This document shows positions 57,294 through 62,501 of a stretch of DNA of 64,000 nt, piece after piece (positions within the stretch are counted from its first letter, which is position 1; each line of letters opens with the position of its first letter). Position numbers and translations under genes: made by a program. The notes beneath the pieces were generated by a model, which ran no database searches, had not been told where the DNA came from, and saw only the letters and a program-made list of their open reading frames with translations. Source of the DNA: Bacteroidetes bacterium SW_9_63_38 (GTDB lineage Bacteria > Bacteroidota > Rhodothermia > Rhodothermales > Salinibacteraceae); NCBI GenBank assembly GCA_003022435.1, contig PXUA01000008.1, forward strand, positions 1-64,000. Reading direction: 5' to 3'.

Positions 57294-58577
57294 ATGGTTC
57301 AGCTCAACGACACGAACGCTCGCTCCTTTCTCGACGACGGAGCCCTCGACACCCTGCAGCCGGAAGTCGACGCGGCCCACCGGGCCGTCCTCGACAAGAG
57401 CGGTGCCGGCAGCGAAATGCTGGGCTGGCGCGACCTCCTCCTCGACCCCGACCACGACCTGCTCGACGACATCGAGGCAACGGCCGAGCACCTCAAGGAC
57501 GAGGCCGACGTACTGCTTTGCCTCGGCATCGGCGGCTCCTACCTCGGCGCCCGCGCCGTCATCAACGCCCTCACGCCTTACCTCGGGGCGAGCGCGAGCG
57601 CCGACGCGCCTGAGGTACGGTTTGCAGGCTACCAGACGAGCGGGGCCTACCTGAACGAGCTCCTTGAGGACCTGGAGGGCGAATCGGTCTACGTCAACGT
57701 CATCTCAAAGAGCGGCACCACCCTCGAAACCGCCCTCTCTTTCCGCGTCGTGCGGAACTGGCTGGAGGACCAGTATGAAAACCCCGCCGGCCGCATCCTC
57801 ATCACGACCGACAAGGACCAGGGCGCCCTCAACGCCCTCAACGACGCGCACGGCTTCCACAAAAAGTACGTCATCCCCGACGATGTGGGCGGCCGCTTCT
57901 CCGTGCTCACCCCGGTGGGTCTACTCCCCATCGCCGCGGCGGGCATCGACATCAGGGCCTTCTTTAACGGGGCCGCCGCCGCGTGCGAGGAACTCGACGA
58001 TGCCGACGTCAACCACGATGCCCTCCGGTACGCCGCCCTCCGCTACCTGCTCCTGCAAAACGGCTACGACGTCGAAACCCTCGCCGTCTTCGAACCGAAG
58101 CTCCGGAACGTCGGCCGCTGGTGGCAGCAACTCTTCGGCGAGAGCGAAGGCAAGGAGGACAAGGGGCTCTTTCCCACCGTCGCCCAGTACACCACCGATC
58201 TCCACTCGATCGGCCAGTACATGCAGCAGGGCCAGCGCACAATCATAGAAACGTTCCTGCTGCCGGAAGAGGATCCCGGCGACCTCCGCATCCCCGAAAC
58301 CGACCACAACGTCGACGACCTCAACTACGTGGCCGGAAAGAGCATGGCCGACGTGACGCAGGCGGCCTACGACGGCACCGCCCAGGCCCACGCCGACGGC
58401 GGCGTGCCCAACGTCACCATCACCTTCGACGAAATCGCTCCCGGCCCCCTCGGCGAACTGCTCCACTTCTTCGAGCACGCCGTGGCCGTGGGCGGCTACC
58501 TGCTCGACGTAAACCCCTTCAACCAGCCGGGCGTCGAGGACTACAAGCGCGAGATGTACGACCGCCTCGGTCGGTAG
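57294..58577 (+). CDS. pgi: Glucose-6-phosphate isomerase (short bacterial type)
   Basis: The protein is 427 aa from MVQLNDTNARSFLDDGALDT. It has LLCLGIGGSYLGARAVINAL (GIGGS), VISKSGTTLETALSFRV (sugar-phosphate SIS loop), DDVGGRFSVLTPVGLLP and HFFEHAVAVGGYLLDVNPFN (His). It interconverts glucose-6-P and fructose-6-P. The length matches the short, Bacillus-type enzymes. It is followed by a strong terminator and then by the DnaA-box region. Confidence 0.96.
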   Translation: MVQLNDTNARSFLDDGALDTLQPEVDAAHRAVLDKSGAGSEMLGWRDLLLDPDHDLLDDIEATAEHLKDEADVLLCLGIGGSYLGARAVINALTPYLGASASADAPEVRFAGYQTSGAYLNELLEDLEGESVYVNVISKSGTTLETALSFRVVRNWLEDQYENPAGRILITTDKDQGALNALNDAHGFHKKYVIPDDVGGRFSVLTPVGLLPIAAAGIDIRAFFNGAAAACEELDDADVNHDALRYAALRYLLLQNGYDVETLAVFEPKLRNVGRWWQQLFGESEGKEDKGLFPTVAQYTTDLHSIGQYMQQGQRTIIETFLLPEEDPGDLRIPETDHNVDDLNYVAGKSMADVTQAAYDGTAQAHADGGVPNVTITFDEIAPGPLGELLHFFEHAVAVGGYLLDVNPFNQPGVEDYKREMYDRLGR

Positions 58578-58620
58578 GAAATCCCGCCTGAGCGCACACA
58601 TCCCGTATTCGCCACCCATA

Positions 58621-58657
58621 ATGGCCGTGTCCGGATTTCGCCGGGCACGGCCATTTT
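58621..58657 (+). terminator. Intrinsic terminator of pgi
   Basis: A 14-bp stem with one G-U pair (ATGGCCGTGTCCGG / CCGGGCACGGCCAT), a 6-nt loop and a TTTT run at 58654-58657. It isolates pgi transcription from the origin candidate 70 bp further on. Confidence 0.92.
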
Positions 58658-58715: not shown

Positions 58716-59145
58716 GGTGTGGACTTTATCCACGATTTTGTGGATAACGCGTGGAAAAGTGGTCCATAACACCTGGATAACCTGAACGCCGATTGTTCAC
58801 CGTCAGCGTCCGTGCATAACTCACGGGTCTGTCCACAGCCGTCCTCGTCTTCTCAACACTGTGGATGAGTGTGCACAACTGTGCCCAAAAATTCCACATT
58901 TTCCTGTGGATAGCTGTGGATACGTGGAAAACACCCCCAAAATCGGCGTTTTTGGCCGTAGACCAGCTTCTGAACACCGACAGATGTGCATAATTCTGTG
59001 AATGACCCCTCGAACTGTCCACAGGAGGACCGCACCGTTGTGGGTTGTCTGCTTGTCCACATTTCCACACGACCAATAACAACAACCACATATTTCTAAA
59101 AATCCCAGAGTGCTTTATTCGTACCAGGGCGTGTGGATAACCTTA
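58716..59145. other. Candidate chromosomal origin oriC (DnaA-box array)
   Basis: This 430-bp non-coding stretch is crowded with matches to TTWTNCACA. Perfect: 58739-58747, 58985-58993 and 59132-59140 (minus orientation). One mismatch: 58726, 58811, 58860, 58870, 58905, 58915, 58997, 59053 and 59061. Two mismatches: 58772, 58829 and 59015. The first two, at 58726-58747, face each other as a palindrome. An AT-rich stretch at 59074-59105 and 59112-59120 could be the unwinding element. No ORF in the region is protein-like. Confidence 0.85.
59074..59120. other. AT-rich stretch, possible DNA unwinding element
   Basis: AATAACAACAACCACATATT and the following TCTAAAAA form the most AT-rich run in the array, bracketed by DnaA boxes at 59053-59069 and 59132-59140. 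Position and composition suggest a DUE. Confidence 0.5.
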
Positions 59146-59295
59146 CCGGACAGTGATACGGCCTCTGCGGAATCGATATATGCCTGTAGGAACGATCCGT
59201 ACTGGTACAATATGGTATATCGGTCTTCGGCTTGGGGATATTCCCGCACGGGAATACGCACGCGCAAGAGGATCAAGAACACTTTTCGGGCAGGG

Positions 59296-61788
59296 CTACT
59301 TCCACGACACCGGCCAGACTTTTCGACCGTCTGTGCGAATCCAAACCGCTCCCCGAGACGCTGTGCTCCGCACAGTGTCGCTCACCGACGCCCACCTCGA
59401 CACTACACGGGGCGACGGCATACCAAACCGGTTGGAGCGTCCCACACTCACGACGGCTTTCGTATCCTCCATCGCAGAAGCCTGGACGAACACTGGCGTG
59501 CTGCTCGTCGAGGATCCGTGATGGGGAATCTTCACCACGCGGCTTTCGAGCCGACGACCGTACGTGCGAACGAGATCTGCCTCGGCAGCCGTCTCAATAT
59601 CTCCGGGAAGAAGAACGCTCACACACCCGTACGAGAGGCGAAGCACCACAGACGCTCCATTTTCCGACCCAATACCTTGTTGAGAGGGCTGCGCCGGCGG
59701 TCCCAGTACCGCTCCGTGAACAGCATCTCCCAGCGGAATCTTATCCCCACGATCCAAAGCCGTGGACGGCACATCGAACCTTCGAAGGAGCCGGCGCGTC
59801 TCGCGGTACAACTCCGTGTCGGACGACTGTCCGCTGTGGTAGACCCGACCCACCGATACCTCGTGCAGAATCTGGGGGAGCCCACCGAGATGATCAGCAT
59901 CGGGATGCGTGATAACAACCGCGTCGAGGTGTTTCACACCGCGCCGTTCCAGATACGGAAGCACGGAATGCGATGCCGCCGGATCCCCGGAAAACGAGCG
60001 CGGGCCGGTGTCAATTAGCACGCGTTGGTCCGACGGCGTCCTGACGAGTGCGGCGTCTCCCTGCCCCACATCGAAGAACAGGAGGTCGAGTGTCGGCGCC
60101 CCCAACCGGGAAACGGCGCCGGTCCACACGCTGACGGTGGCGAGAAGAAGTGCAGCGAGCAGGCACCGCCATCGCCTCCGCGGCCGCGACCACTGTGCCA
60201 GAGCAACGACTCCCAACACCACAGCCCCGAGGGTCCACCCCCCCAGATCGAACGCCCGAATGCCGAGCCACCCCAGCCAAGCAGCCCCTTCCCGAGACGC
60301 CAGGAGCAGTCCATCGACGAACAGGTCCGCGCTGCTCCCGAACGCCGTTCCCGCCATCGGCCACAGTTCCCCGGTGCAGACGAGCGCAAGGGCCGACGAC
60401 AAGGCCAGAGCCGTACAGGGAATGCCCAACACATTCAGGAGAAGCCCCGCGGCGGACACCCATCCGAAGTGAGCGAGCAGTACGGGGGCCGTGGCGACGG
60501 TGGCCGCCACCGATACTGTGACGGTAGAGCGGAGCCCGTCGCCAACCGCGGAGTCCGTCCACAGTGCCGGGAGGTTGTCCACAATCTGTGGATGGATCGT
60601 GACGATTCCGGCCACGGCCGCCATGGAGAGCTGAAAGCCCACGTCAAACAGAGCGGGCGGCCGAAGCGCAAGGAGAAGAAGAGCAGCCACCCCCAGCGTA
60701 TTCAGCGGACGCGCAGACCGCTGAACGAGAAGACCGCCGATGAGAAGCGTCGACATAACGACGGCTCGCACCACCGACGGTCGTGCCCCCGTGAGGAGCA
60801 TGTAGCCAGCGAGGGCGCACACCGTGAGGGCCGACCGGCCTCCCTCCACCGCCGTCCAGCCCAGCCGAAGACGAGTGAGCACCGGCCGGAGCAGAACATA
60901 CAGCACCATGCCAACCAGGAACACGTGAAGCCCGGACACTGCGAGGAGATGCATGAGCCCCGTTTGCGCAAACCACCCGCGCTGCGTGTCCGAGATGCCG
61001 CTCCGATCACCAAGCAGGAGCGCCTGAAGCACAGCACGGCCGTCGGCACTCGGCACGTAGCGGGCAATGTGATGGCGCACGTGCTGTCGCACCGCTACCA
61101 CGGCCCGGGTGAACACCGACGGGGACGGAGAAAGACGACGTACCGCCTGTGGTGCATCCATGTACATCGTACAGCAGATGCCCCGCCGTGCGAGGTAAGC
61201 AGCGTAGTCGAACCCACCGGGATTGCGGAGGCCAGACGGCGACCGCAGCCCTCCTCGGAGCCGGATGCGATCGCCCTCAAAGAGCGTCGGAAAGTCGGCC
61301 TCGGATTCGTCGGACCAGGGGGATGGGCGCATGGTAACCCGAATTCGTCCATCGGCCGCTCGTGCAGCATCGGCCCCGTGGATCGAGTCCGCGCGGAGAG
61401 TGAATCGCGTCGCGTTCCCAGATCGCTCCGGTGCATCCGCAACGATGCCCGTAAGAGTGACCGACGGGGGCGACGCAGCAGACGCCGCAGGCGCCACGGA
61501 GCGGGGAGAAGGCGCGGTGTAGACGGCATGGCAGGCACTGCCGGTGAACGCACTCACGAGGAGGACTCCGACCATCCGAACGAGTGGAGCCAGTGACACG
61601 AGGCGAGATCGTTTCCACCACTCGGCCGCCGCAAAGACGAGCAGTCCGACCCCGACTCCACCGAGCCACCACACCGGATCGCCCCCAGTCGCGGAGGCGC
61701 GCACCGCCACTCCGCTCCCAAACGCCGCCGCCAGCAGAAGCGCTGGGGAGGAGGATCCGTCGAGTGTGATCCGGCTGTTTGGGGGCAT
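59296..61788 (-). CDS. comEC: ComEC/Rec2 DNA-uptake channel with MBL domain
   Basis: The protein is about 830 aa from MPPNSRITLDGSSSPALLLA (ATG at 61788; an in-frame start at 61821 is possible). It has N-terminal helices and a ComEC N-terminal domain. The competence domain has GDRSGISDTQRGWFAQTGLM and HLLAVSGLHVFLVGMVLY, then multiple transmembrane helices, then a metallo-beta-lactamase domain (LDLLFFDVGQGDAALVRTP, VVITHPDADHLGGLPQIL). It moves single-stranded DNA into the cytoplasm in natural transformation. Other com genes are not in the window. Convergent to the origin side. Confidence 0.92.
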   Translation of the reverse strand: MPPNSRITLDGSSSPALLLAAAFGSGVAVRASATGGDPVWWLGGVGVGLLVFAAAEWWKRSRLVSLAPLVRMVGVLLVSAFTGSACHAVYTAPSPRSVAPAASAASPPSVTLTGIVADAPERSGNATRFTLRADSIHGADAARAADGRIRVTMRPSPWSDESEADFPTLFEGDRIRLRGGLRSPSGLRNPGGFDYAAYLARRGICCTMYMDAPQAVRRLSPSPSVFTRAVVAVRQHVRHHIARYVPSADGRAVLQALLLGDRSGISDTQRGWFAQTGLMHLLAVSGLHVFLVGMVLYVLLRPVLTRLRLGWTAVEGGRSALTVCALAGYMLLTGARPSVVRAVVMSTLLIGGLLVQRSARPLNTLGVAALLLLALRPPALFDVGFQLSMAAVAGIVTIHPQIVDNLPALWTDSAVGDGLRSTVTVSVAATVATAPVLLAHFGWVSAAGLLLNVLGIPCTALALSSALALVCTGELWPMAGTAFGSSADLFVDGLLLASREGAAWLGWLGIRAFDLGGWTLGAVVLGVVALAQWSRPRRRWRCLLAALLLATVSVWTGAVSRLGAPTLDLLFFDVGQGDAALVRTPSDQRVLIDTGPRSFSGDPAASHSVLPYLERRGVKHLDAVVITHPDADHLGGLPQILHEVSVGRVYHSGQSSDTELYRETRRLLRRFDVPSTALDRGDKIPLGDAVHGAVLGPPAQPSQQGIGSENGASVVLRLSYGCVSVLLPGDIETAAEADLVRTYGRRLESRVVKIPHHGSSTSSTPVFVQASAMEDTKAVVSVGRSNRFGMPSPRVVSRWASVSDTVRSTASRGAVWIRTDGRKVWPVSWK

Positions 61789-62018
61789 TGCGCCGCGACA
61801 GGCCCGGTTTTGACGGGACAACCACTCGATGGTGTAGACACACTGAAGTGGTAGAGTCTAACCCGTTTCAGAATGACCGAACCCACGATCCAAGATTGAG
61901 GGAATCCGACCCGGAGCGCGAACCTCCGTCTTCCTCGCAAATACGAACAAAGCTTCTCACGCGCAGAGCCCCCCAACGGACCGCTGCGTCTCGATCCTCA
62001 AGCCGACCCAACGGTCTC

Positions 62019-62501
62019 ATGAGTACCCGACGCGAAGCGCGCGAACATGTGATGCAGGCGCTCTATGCGCACGAGCAGTCCGGGGGAGACGCGAACCACA
62101 TCGTCCACACGCTTCTCAATCCCGAGCTCGACGATGATCCTAAGACGCGGACGTTCGCGGAAGAACTGTTTCGGACGACGCTGGAGACGAAAGAGACGGT
62201 AAACGAGATTATCCGCGACCACGCCGCGAACTGGGATTTGGAACGAATCACCGCGGTTGATCGCGCACTGCTTCGGATGGCGACGACCGAACTGCTGAAG
62301 TTCGAAGAGATTCCCCCAAAGGTGTCCATCGACGAGGCCATCGAGATCGGCAAGCGGTACAGCACCAACGACAGCGGGCCGTTCATCAACGGCGTGCTCG
62401 ACTCCGTACTGATGGACCTTCACCGTCAGGGACGGCTTGACAAATCCGGACGCGGCCTCGTAGGCATGGACACGATCCGGGAGCGTGCCCAGTCAGAGTA
62501 A
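62019..62501 (+). CDS. nusB: Transcription antitermination factor NusB
   Basis: The protein is 160 aa from the ATG at 62019 (MSTRREAREHVMQALYAHEQ). It is all-helical with RREAREHVMQALYA near the start, WDLERITAVDRALLRMATTE, and PPKVSIDEAIEIGKRYSTND followed by FINGVLD. It binds boxA with NusE during rRNA transcription. The C-terminus is slightly extended and acidic. Confidence 0.95.
   Translation: MSTRREAREHVMQALYAHEQSGGDANHIVHTLLNPELDDDPKTRTFAEELFRTTLETKETVNEIIRDHAANWDLERITAVDRALLRMATTELLKFEEIPPKVSIDEAIEIGKRYSTNDSGPFINGVLDSVLMDLHRQGRLDKSGRGLVGMDTIRERAQSE

Follow-up and report, generated by a model that had tools for sequence, protein, structure and literature searches.

A predicted chromosomal replication origin between pgi and comEC in the Rhodothermales

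Bacterial chromosomal replication origins (oriC) frequently lie beside dnaA, dnaN, gidA or rpmH, although this is not obligatory, and origins away from dnaA are known from E. coli and Caulobacter. At the E. coli oriC, between gidA and mioC, the array of DnaA boxes is found on one side of the DNA-unwinding element (DUE). This origin lies apart from dnaA according to passages of PMC8287927, in which its score for a basal unwinding system (BUS) is termed relatively weak. The BUS of B. subtilis, as available passages describe it, consists of TTATNCACA boxes that end in a co-oriented pair (DnaA-boxes 6/7), followed by a GC spacer, DnaA-trios and an AT-rich element. The canonical polarity of the trios is CTA on the box strand after the boxes, as given in parts of PMC8235120, PMC10316083 and PMC7561715. 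The T. maritima oriC (extended trio, several DUE modules) offers a precedent for more than one functional triplet element in a DUE. It differs from the locus described here in its box motif, and the available text of PMC10316083 describes no mirrored box past the DUE. A Streptomyces origin also reportedly has two putative unwinding elements, as announced in the title of Plachetka 2019.

Here we describe an array of DnaA boxes between pgi and comEC in a member of the Rhodothermales, which on the strength of its sequence is very probably the chromosomal replication origin. It resembles the B. subtilis BUS in ending in a co-oriented box pair, a spacer, triplets and an AT-rich element. Unlike in B. 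subtilis, the array is not beside dnaA, the triplets on its left side (CAA and TAA) are T-centred on the trio strand, and a second, mirrored box-and-triplet module is found on the far side. Compared with E. coli, the neighbouring genes are pgi and comEC, and boxes flank the DUE on both sides. The properties that we computed are the density of the boxes, the GC-skew switch, the instability of the DNA, the conservation of boxes and spacing despite changing flanks, and the conserved position. From these we infer initiation at the array, the DnaA that acts there and the side that opens first.

The pgi-comEC locus and its DnaA boxes

The window, i.e. the whole stretch of DNA that was analysed, corresponds to the initial 64 kb of contig C8 (247,116 bp), from an assembly of 19 contigs and 2.84 Mb that is 84% complete. 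Its pgi is 74-75% identical to that of Salinivenus, the nearest named relatives (Salinibacter group, Rhodothermales). The genes for glucose-6-phosphate isomerase (pgi, 57294-58577, forward strand; an ORF matching Pfam PF00342, E 3.3e-26) and for a DNA-uptake channel (comEC, 59296-61821, reverse strand; PF03772, E 4.3e-58, and PF00753) are both directed toward the predicted origin. Because of this convergence, the array is downstream of each and upstream of neither. The strong pgi terminator that the initial annotation had placed ahead of the array is borne out, with a 15-bp stem, a 6-nt loop and a T-rich tail (58620-58655, forward strand). None of the typical oriC neighbours dnaA, dnaN, gidA and rpmH adjoins the array, and dnaN and dnaA are 26-29 kb off.

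This arrangement bears on the idea that the array is a DnaA-controlled promoter region of pgi or comEC. DnaA can regulate genes via upstream boxes, and in family f15 comEC is directed away from the array, which therefore lies upstream of it there. In this genome, however, both genes end at the array, one promoter-like match was found against 0.6 expected, and elsewhere the array survives the loss of pgi. We consider the promoter explanation almost certainly wrong.

When both strands of 58716-59145 are compared with TTATNCACA, 11 boxes with at most one mismatch are found between 58726 and 59140, and the 13-species alignment described below also displays the array. Three of these are perfect (at 58739, 58985 and 59132) and eight have one mismatch; with up to two mismatches the number rises to 24. 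The initial annotation had listed about fifteen boxes, three of them perfect and nine with one mismatch. Its perfect boxes and the crowding hold, while its other counts were slightly off. The cluster is far denser than chance: across 2000 shuffles of these 430 bp that preserved dinucleotides, the mean was 0.5 boxes and the maximum 5. Of the perfect boxes, TTATCCACA lies close to the left edge (58739-58747, reverse strand), where TGTGGATAAC is invariant in the 13-species alignment, and TTATGCACA is found in the middle (58985-58993, reverse strand).

The window as a whole has 30 box matches, against 11.4 expected, and 11 of them are inside the array. No equal density was found elsewhere on C8:1-224000, a point on which the initial annotation had let its reading depend; the next densest places have 4, 4 and 3 boxes per 430 bp. 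We also searched 109 pieces of twenty kb each (2.18 Mb, with some stretches masked), taken from this genome and five relatives. Six clusters with at least 5 boxes in 500 bp were found, five of which are orthologous arrays and one of which is upstream of a dnaA gene. For perfect boxes, which were the only kind scanned for on the other contigs, the genome-wide count is 20 in 2.84 Mb. Three of these are in the array, and the next closest group has two (C8 110588-110738). The latter is part of a group of four boxes at C8 110588-110998, 51 kb right of the predicted origin, which is possibly a regulatory or titration site.

To the right of the DUE, between it and the end of comEC, short inverted repeats (ATCGATATA/TATATCGGT and TATTCCC/GGGAATA, 59172-59256) were recognized by eye in the 13-species alignment, being shorter than our repeat search could pick up. 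They are partly conserved, and similar ones are visible in several relatives. Folded as RNA they are not more stable than shuffles (z -0.99), and RNA folding is no explanation for them. An Rfam scan of the window at gathering scores returned two tRNAs only, and a search at distant sensitivity returned no plasmid match to the array.

GC skew and the dnaA genes

The initial annotation predicted a skew minimum near 59 kb. In 1-kb bins over the whole of contig C8, GC skew turns from negative to positive at 63 kb (bootstrap 60-67), and over the first 124 kb it does so at 62 kb (bootstrap 59-66). Cumulated over 1-224 kb, the skew reaches its minimum at position 62,123. The prediction is thus upheld to within a few kb, with the array (58.7-59.1 kb) at the edge of the 59-66 interval and 1 kb outside the 60-67 interval, and the estimate 3 kb to its right. 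The dnaA gene (87.0-88.6 kb), 28 kb from the array, lies well beyond both intervals. Skew averages -0.052 over 0-59 kb, +0.026 over 64-88 kb and +0.083 over 88-124 kb.

These values bear on a rival proposal, in which replication truly starts at the dnaA-dnaN locus (C8 85.6-89 kb) and the array is an accessory site. A dnaA-dnaN locus is the commonest bacterial origin site, the two genes are adjacent on C8, and three boxes with at most one mismatch (88778, 88840 and 88982) are found just upstream of dnaA. On the other hand, skew has already turned positive in the 64-88 kb segment (0.0255 +- 0.0099), 85-89 kb falls outside both intervals, and three boxes are what dnaA autoregulation leads one to expect. 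The switch, moreover, follows the array in relatives where array and dnaA are approximately 150 kb (G064), 170 kb (G106; a further dnaA is found about 25-26 kb from its array) and 30 kb (G038) apart. An origin at dnaA-dnaN therefore appears very improbable.

The relatives are described here in further detail; the intervals for G064, G106 and G035 refer to the 260-320 kb surrounding both loci rather than to entire chromosomes. For G064, of the same genus, the change point is 2542 kb (2537-2546), with the array from 2544.6 kb and dnaA near 2392 kb. In G106 it is 586 kb (561-608), the array starting at 586.0 kb and the dnaA copies lying at 416 and 612 kb, and in G038 it is 30 kb (23-43), with the array from 31.3 kb and dnaA near 0.5-1.4 kb. 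The G063 interval (change point 17 kb, -5 to 35) spans both the array (12.7 kb) and dnaA and does not discriminate. G035 is the counter-example: its change point of 1027 kb (987-1068) excludes both the array (1154 kb) and dnaA (924 kb), and this counts against the array as origin. The switch thus marks the array in three of the five relatives (G064, G106 and G038), is compatible with it in G063 and contrary to it in G035. Along with the conservation of array and module at pgi/comEC, the skew switch supports the reading of 58716-59145 as a replication origin that the initial annotation proposed.

Two side observations concern the same genomes. In G035 (C1, 880-1200 kb) the switch sits between dnaA and the array, perhaps as the result of a recent inversion. 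In G106 (C1, approximately 612.2-612.5 kb) seven boxes lie beside a dnaA copy, about 25-26 kb from the array, and perhaps serve autoregulation.

A DnaA with a box-binding domain is present in all 108 genomes, and two dnaA genes are found in 11 of the 12 genus members. Two copies are also seen in several other Rhodothermales families. In this genome one dnaA (approximately 87.0-88.6 kb) adjoins dnaN (85.6-86.7 kb) on C8, and the other is on contig C15. The two full-length proteins share 230 of 514 aligned residues (45% identity), and both keep GGRDHSTVIHA, a motif of the DnaA domain that binds the boxes. Residues 175-513 of DnaA1 align with PDB chain 8btg (B. subtilis DnaA). In a tree of 28 of the 29 DnaA copies (L240 was left out, and dnaN linkage was checked in this genome), the clade of the dnaN-linked copy has 18 rows (98/100), and several second copies are on long branches.

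The predicted unwinding site and its mirrored module

On the left side of the DUE, the tandem co-oriented boxes TTGTCCACA and TTTCCACA (59053-59069, forward strand) contain the core TCCACATWTCCACA (59056-59069), the sole copy in this genome. A 4-nt spacer, CGAC (59070-59073, forward strand), separates them from the triplets CAA TAA CAA CAA at the position of DnaA-trios (59074-59085, forward strand). The tandem boxes and short GC-rich spacer of a BUS are therefore present at 59053-59073. Three or more trios with a central A on the trio strand (3'-NAN-5') are not present in this left module, as the central base there is T; the triplets are deviant, A-centred on the box strand where CTA is canonical. 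Reading them as ordinary trios on the box strand was considered and dropped, since the published polarity has the central A on the other strand.

The likely DUE (59075-59124) includes the window's least stable 30-mer: by nearest-neighbour energies, 59075-59104 ranks as the least stable of all 63,971. The AT-rich stretch that the initial annotation had remarked near the right end is thus real, and predicted unstable DNA lies directly beside the boxes. This weighs on the suggestion that the array is a datA- or DARS-like site for titration or nucleotide exchange, near the origin and not the origin itself. Boxes are numerous in this non-coding DNA, and small secondary clusters do occur, e.g. at C8 110588-110998. 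Titration sites, however, need no unwinding element, and this array terminates in tandem boxes, a spacer and triplets together with the window's least stable DNA. In three of five relatives the skew switch also falls at the array. We regard such a site as extremely improbable, and return to the array as the predicted origin.

The register against CTA-bearing relatives shows that the left trio is deviant in this genome. In Longimonas, for example, the left module reads TTATCCACATATCCACA-GTCC-CTA CTA CTA CAA CAA, which is canonical, as in most relatives. We hand-picked 60 left modules, mostly from a list of patterns, with five added by their own letters. The first triplet is T-centred in 44 of these, with CTA (3'-GAT-5' on the complement) matching the consensus in available passages on B. 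subtilis, and the first three triplets are A-centred in 16, this genome included, a split that is partly by construction because the list admits CTA- or YAA-type triplets. All 16 genomes with YAA-like, deviant trios belong to four genera within the family of this genome. Automatic module scoring of the whole locus was rejected as too noisy, with 53 of 82 over threshold and many of the hits off the left module. We instead anchored the scoring on the left module; the score of the right module is independent of how the left modules were picked.

The mirrored module (59122-59140, reverse strand) has the perfect box TTATCCACA (59140-59132), the spacer CGCC and the triplets CTG GTA. After CGCC it reads CTG GTA CGA ATA, i.e. 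a perfect single box with two consecutive trios, and not a box, GC spacer and at least three consecutive trios as in a BUS. In 33 of the 60 genomes, where 3 are expected, a mirrored box with triplets beyond the DUE reaches p <= 0.05 against 200 shuffles per genome (p <= 0.01 in 23). Measured from where the left triplets begin, the near edges of these 33 boxes lie at 39-62 bp, and with a single exception at 48-62 bp. The right module is not significant in the other 27, including G102, G105 and G106, where it looks mirrored by eye. In 14 of the 16 deviant-trio genomes, versus none of the 44 CTA genomes, a perfect mirrored box precedes two triplets with the canonical centre. This contrast was spotted during scoring and counted afterwards, and it may reflect one event, as the 16 are close relatives and the counts are phylogenetically nested.

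The predicted opening site is accordingly a variant of a known unwinding system that has a second, mirrored module and whose trios are altered in this branch. The active unwinding side may have switched in the deviant-trio branch. A more far-reaching proposal is that each Rhodothermales origin has two facing DnaA-loading modules, placed on opposite strands at the two sides of one shared unwinding element, and that in Salinibacter-like genomes the ancestral left trios were deprived of the base captured by DnaA, the right box was perfected and DnaA assembly switched strand. We put this forward tentatively and consider it rather unlikely.

The mechanism that we envisage is as follows. DnaA, probably mainly the dnaN-linked copy, would load on the approximately 400-bp array. 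An oligomer would then spread from the boxes on the DUE side onto one strand and melt 59075-59124, where helicases would be loaded. Where relatives have CTA trios, the left side presumably opens first, which would agree with the known system. In this genome the better trio match appears to lie in the right module, yet that module has only two consecutive trios; passages of PMC8287927 use a minimum of three. It may also be that the two sides both act, each serving one helicase.

The DnaA proteins were compared with the trio types. In B. subtilis, Asn187 of DnaA contacts the middle base of the trio, and T at the trio centre slowed strand separation in vitro and, in vivo, gave fewer initiations than C (PMC10721633, section 10). 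In G000, G054, G063 and G064 the first DnaA type has Thr at the aligned position, and the second has Ser. Strict covariation of this residue with trio type was not found, as Longimonas (G056) and G019 combine Thr with CTA; Thr may thus permit the change of trios, and does not by itself explain it. A pairing of two DnaA copies with deviant trios was also rejected. Most of family f1 fits, whereas f13 and f15 have two copies and CTA, and G065 (one copy found, 83% complete) and G071 (two copies found, CTA) are further exceptions.

Conservation across the Rhodothermales

The position of the predicted origin by pgi and comEC is conserved in much of the Rhodothermales. The array or the unwinding module is found there in 69 of 84 genomes, these being the genomes among the 108 searched with pgi- or comEC-side DNA examined. 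At least 5 boxes in 500 bp occur in 49 and the tandem-box-and-triplet module in 60, while the DNA examined has neither in 15. With G106, which was tallied separately, set aside, the other 83 genomes give 48 clusters, 59 left modules, 68 with either and 15 with neither. One of the 15 negatives, G030, has a module motif about 1 kb from comEC, outside the stretch examined. On named contigs, which are mostly from the same species as these genomes, at least 5 boxes in 500 bp are found at 21 of 37 loci, nearly all just past pgi; no cluster is found at the three Aliifodinibius loci. The initial annotation called the location unusual. This is right for the gene neighbours, with dnaA, rpmH and gidA all absent, but not for the site, which is widely conserved, and origins distant from dnaA are known.

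In the alignment of 13 species the boxes provide most of the invariant columns, and the flanks scarcely align. The distance from the first to the last box is 406-408 bp in nine of the 12 genus members and in G052, 329 bp in G060 and G061, and 426 bp in G068. This pgi has been lost from seven of the 12 members, where just a 31-33% match inside a frame of approximately 950-1060 aa is found, and in all seven the array is still at the comEC end. The tandem-box core TCCACATWTCCACA occurs at 44 sites, which are spread over 42 of 108 genomes, against 3 sites for a reversed-pattern control. It has a single copy in each of the 12 genus members, always within the array; the G068 copy is made up of array boxes other than the pair at the unwinding site. 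In families f9 and f14, all five genomes that yielded the module motifs have them away from pgi and comEC (G032:C23:168131, G033:C1:23981, G099:C111:19406, G100:C21:18129 and G101:C2:33832). The origin neighbourhood may have been rearranged in these.

Among the matches listed in our literature searches there was no study of a Rhodothermales origin and no mention of the pgi-comEC junction as one, although DoriC may already hold predictions for S. ruber or R. marinus. A search for terms within the available text of PMC3035238 and PMC6060240 did not find an origin location. Numbering that is based on dnaA, as in G063 and G038, starts 12-31 kb from the array, and in G064 and G106 the distance is approximately 150-170 kb.

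According to passages of PMC10201434, it is unclear how a second helicase comes to be loaded onto the opposite strand, and deviant trios without a central adenine are suspected in passages of PMC8287927. The mirrored module and the series from canonical to deviant trios make both questions directly testable with purified DnaA and short DNA. The prediction locates the origin in many representatives of an order to which model halophiles and thermophiles belong. If two facing modules are indeed present, the Rhodothermales would be a natural series for studying how an origin puts one helicase on each strand.
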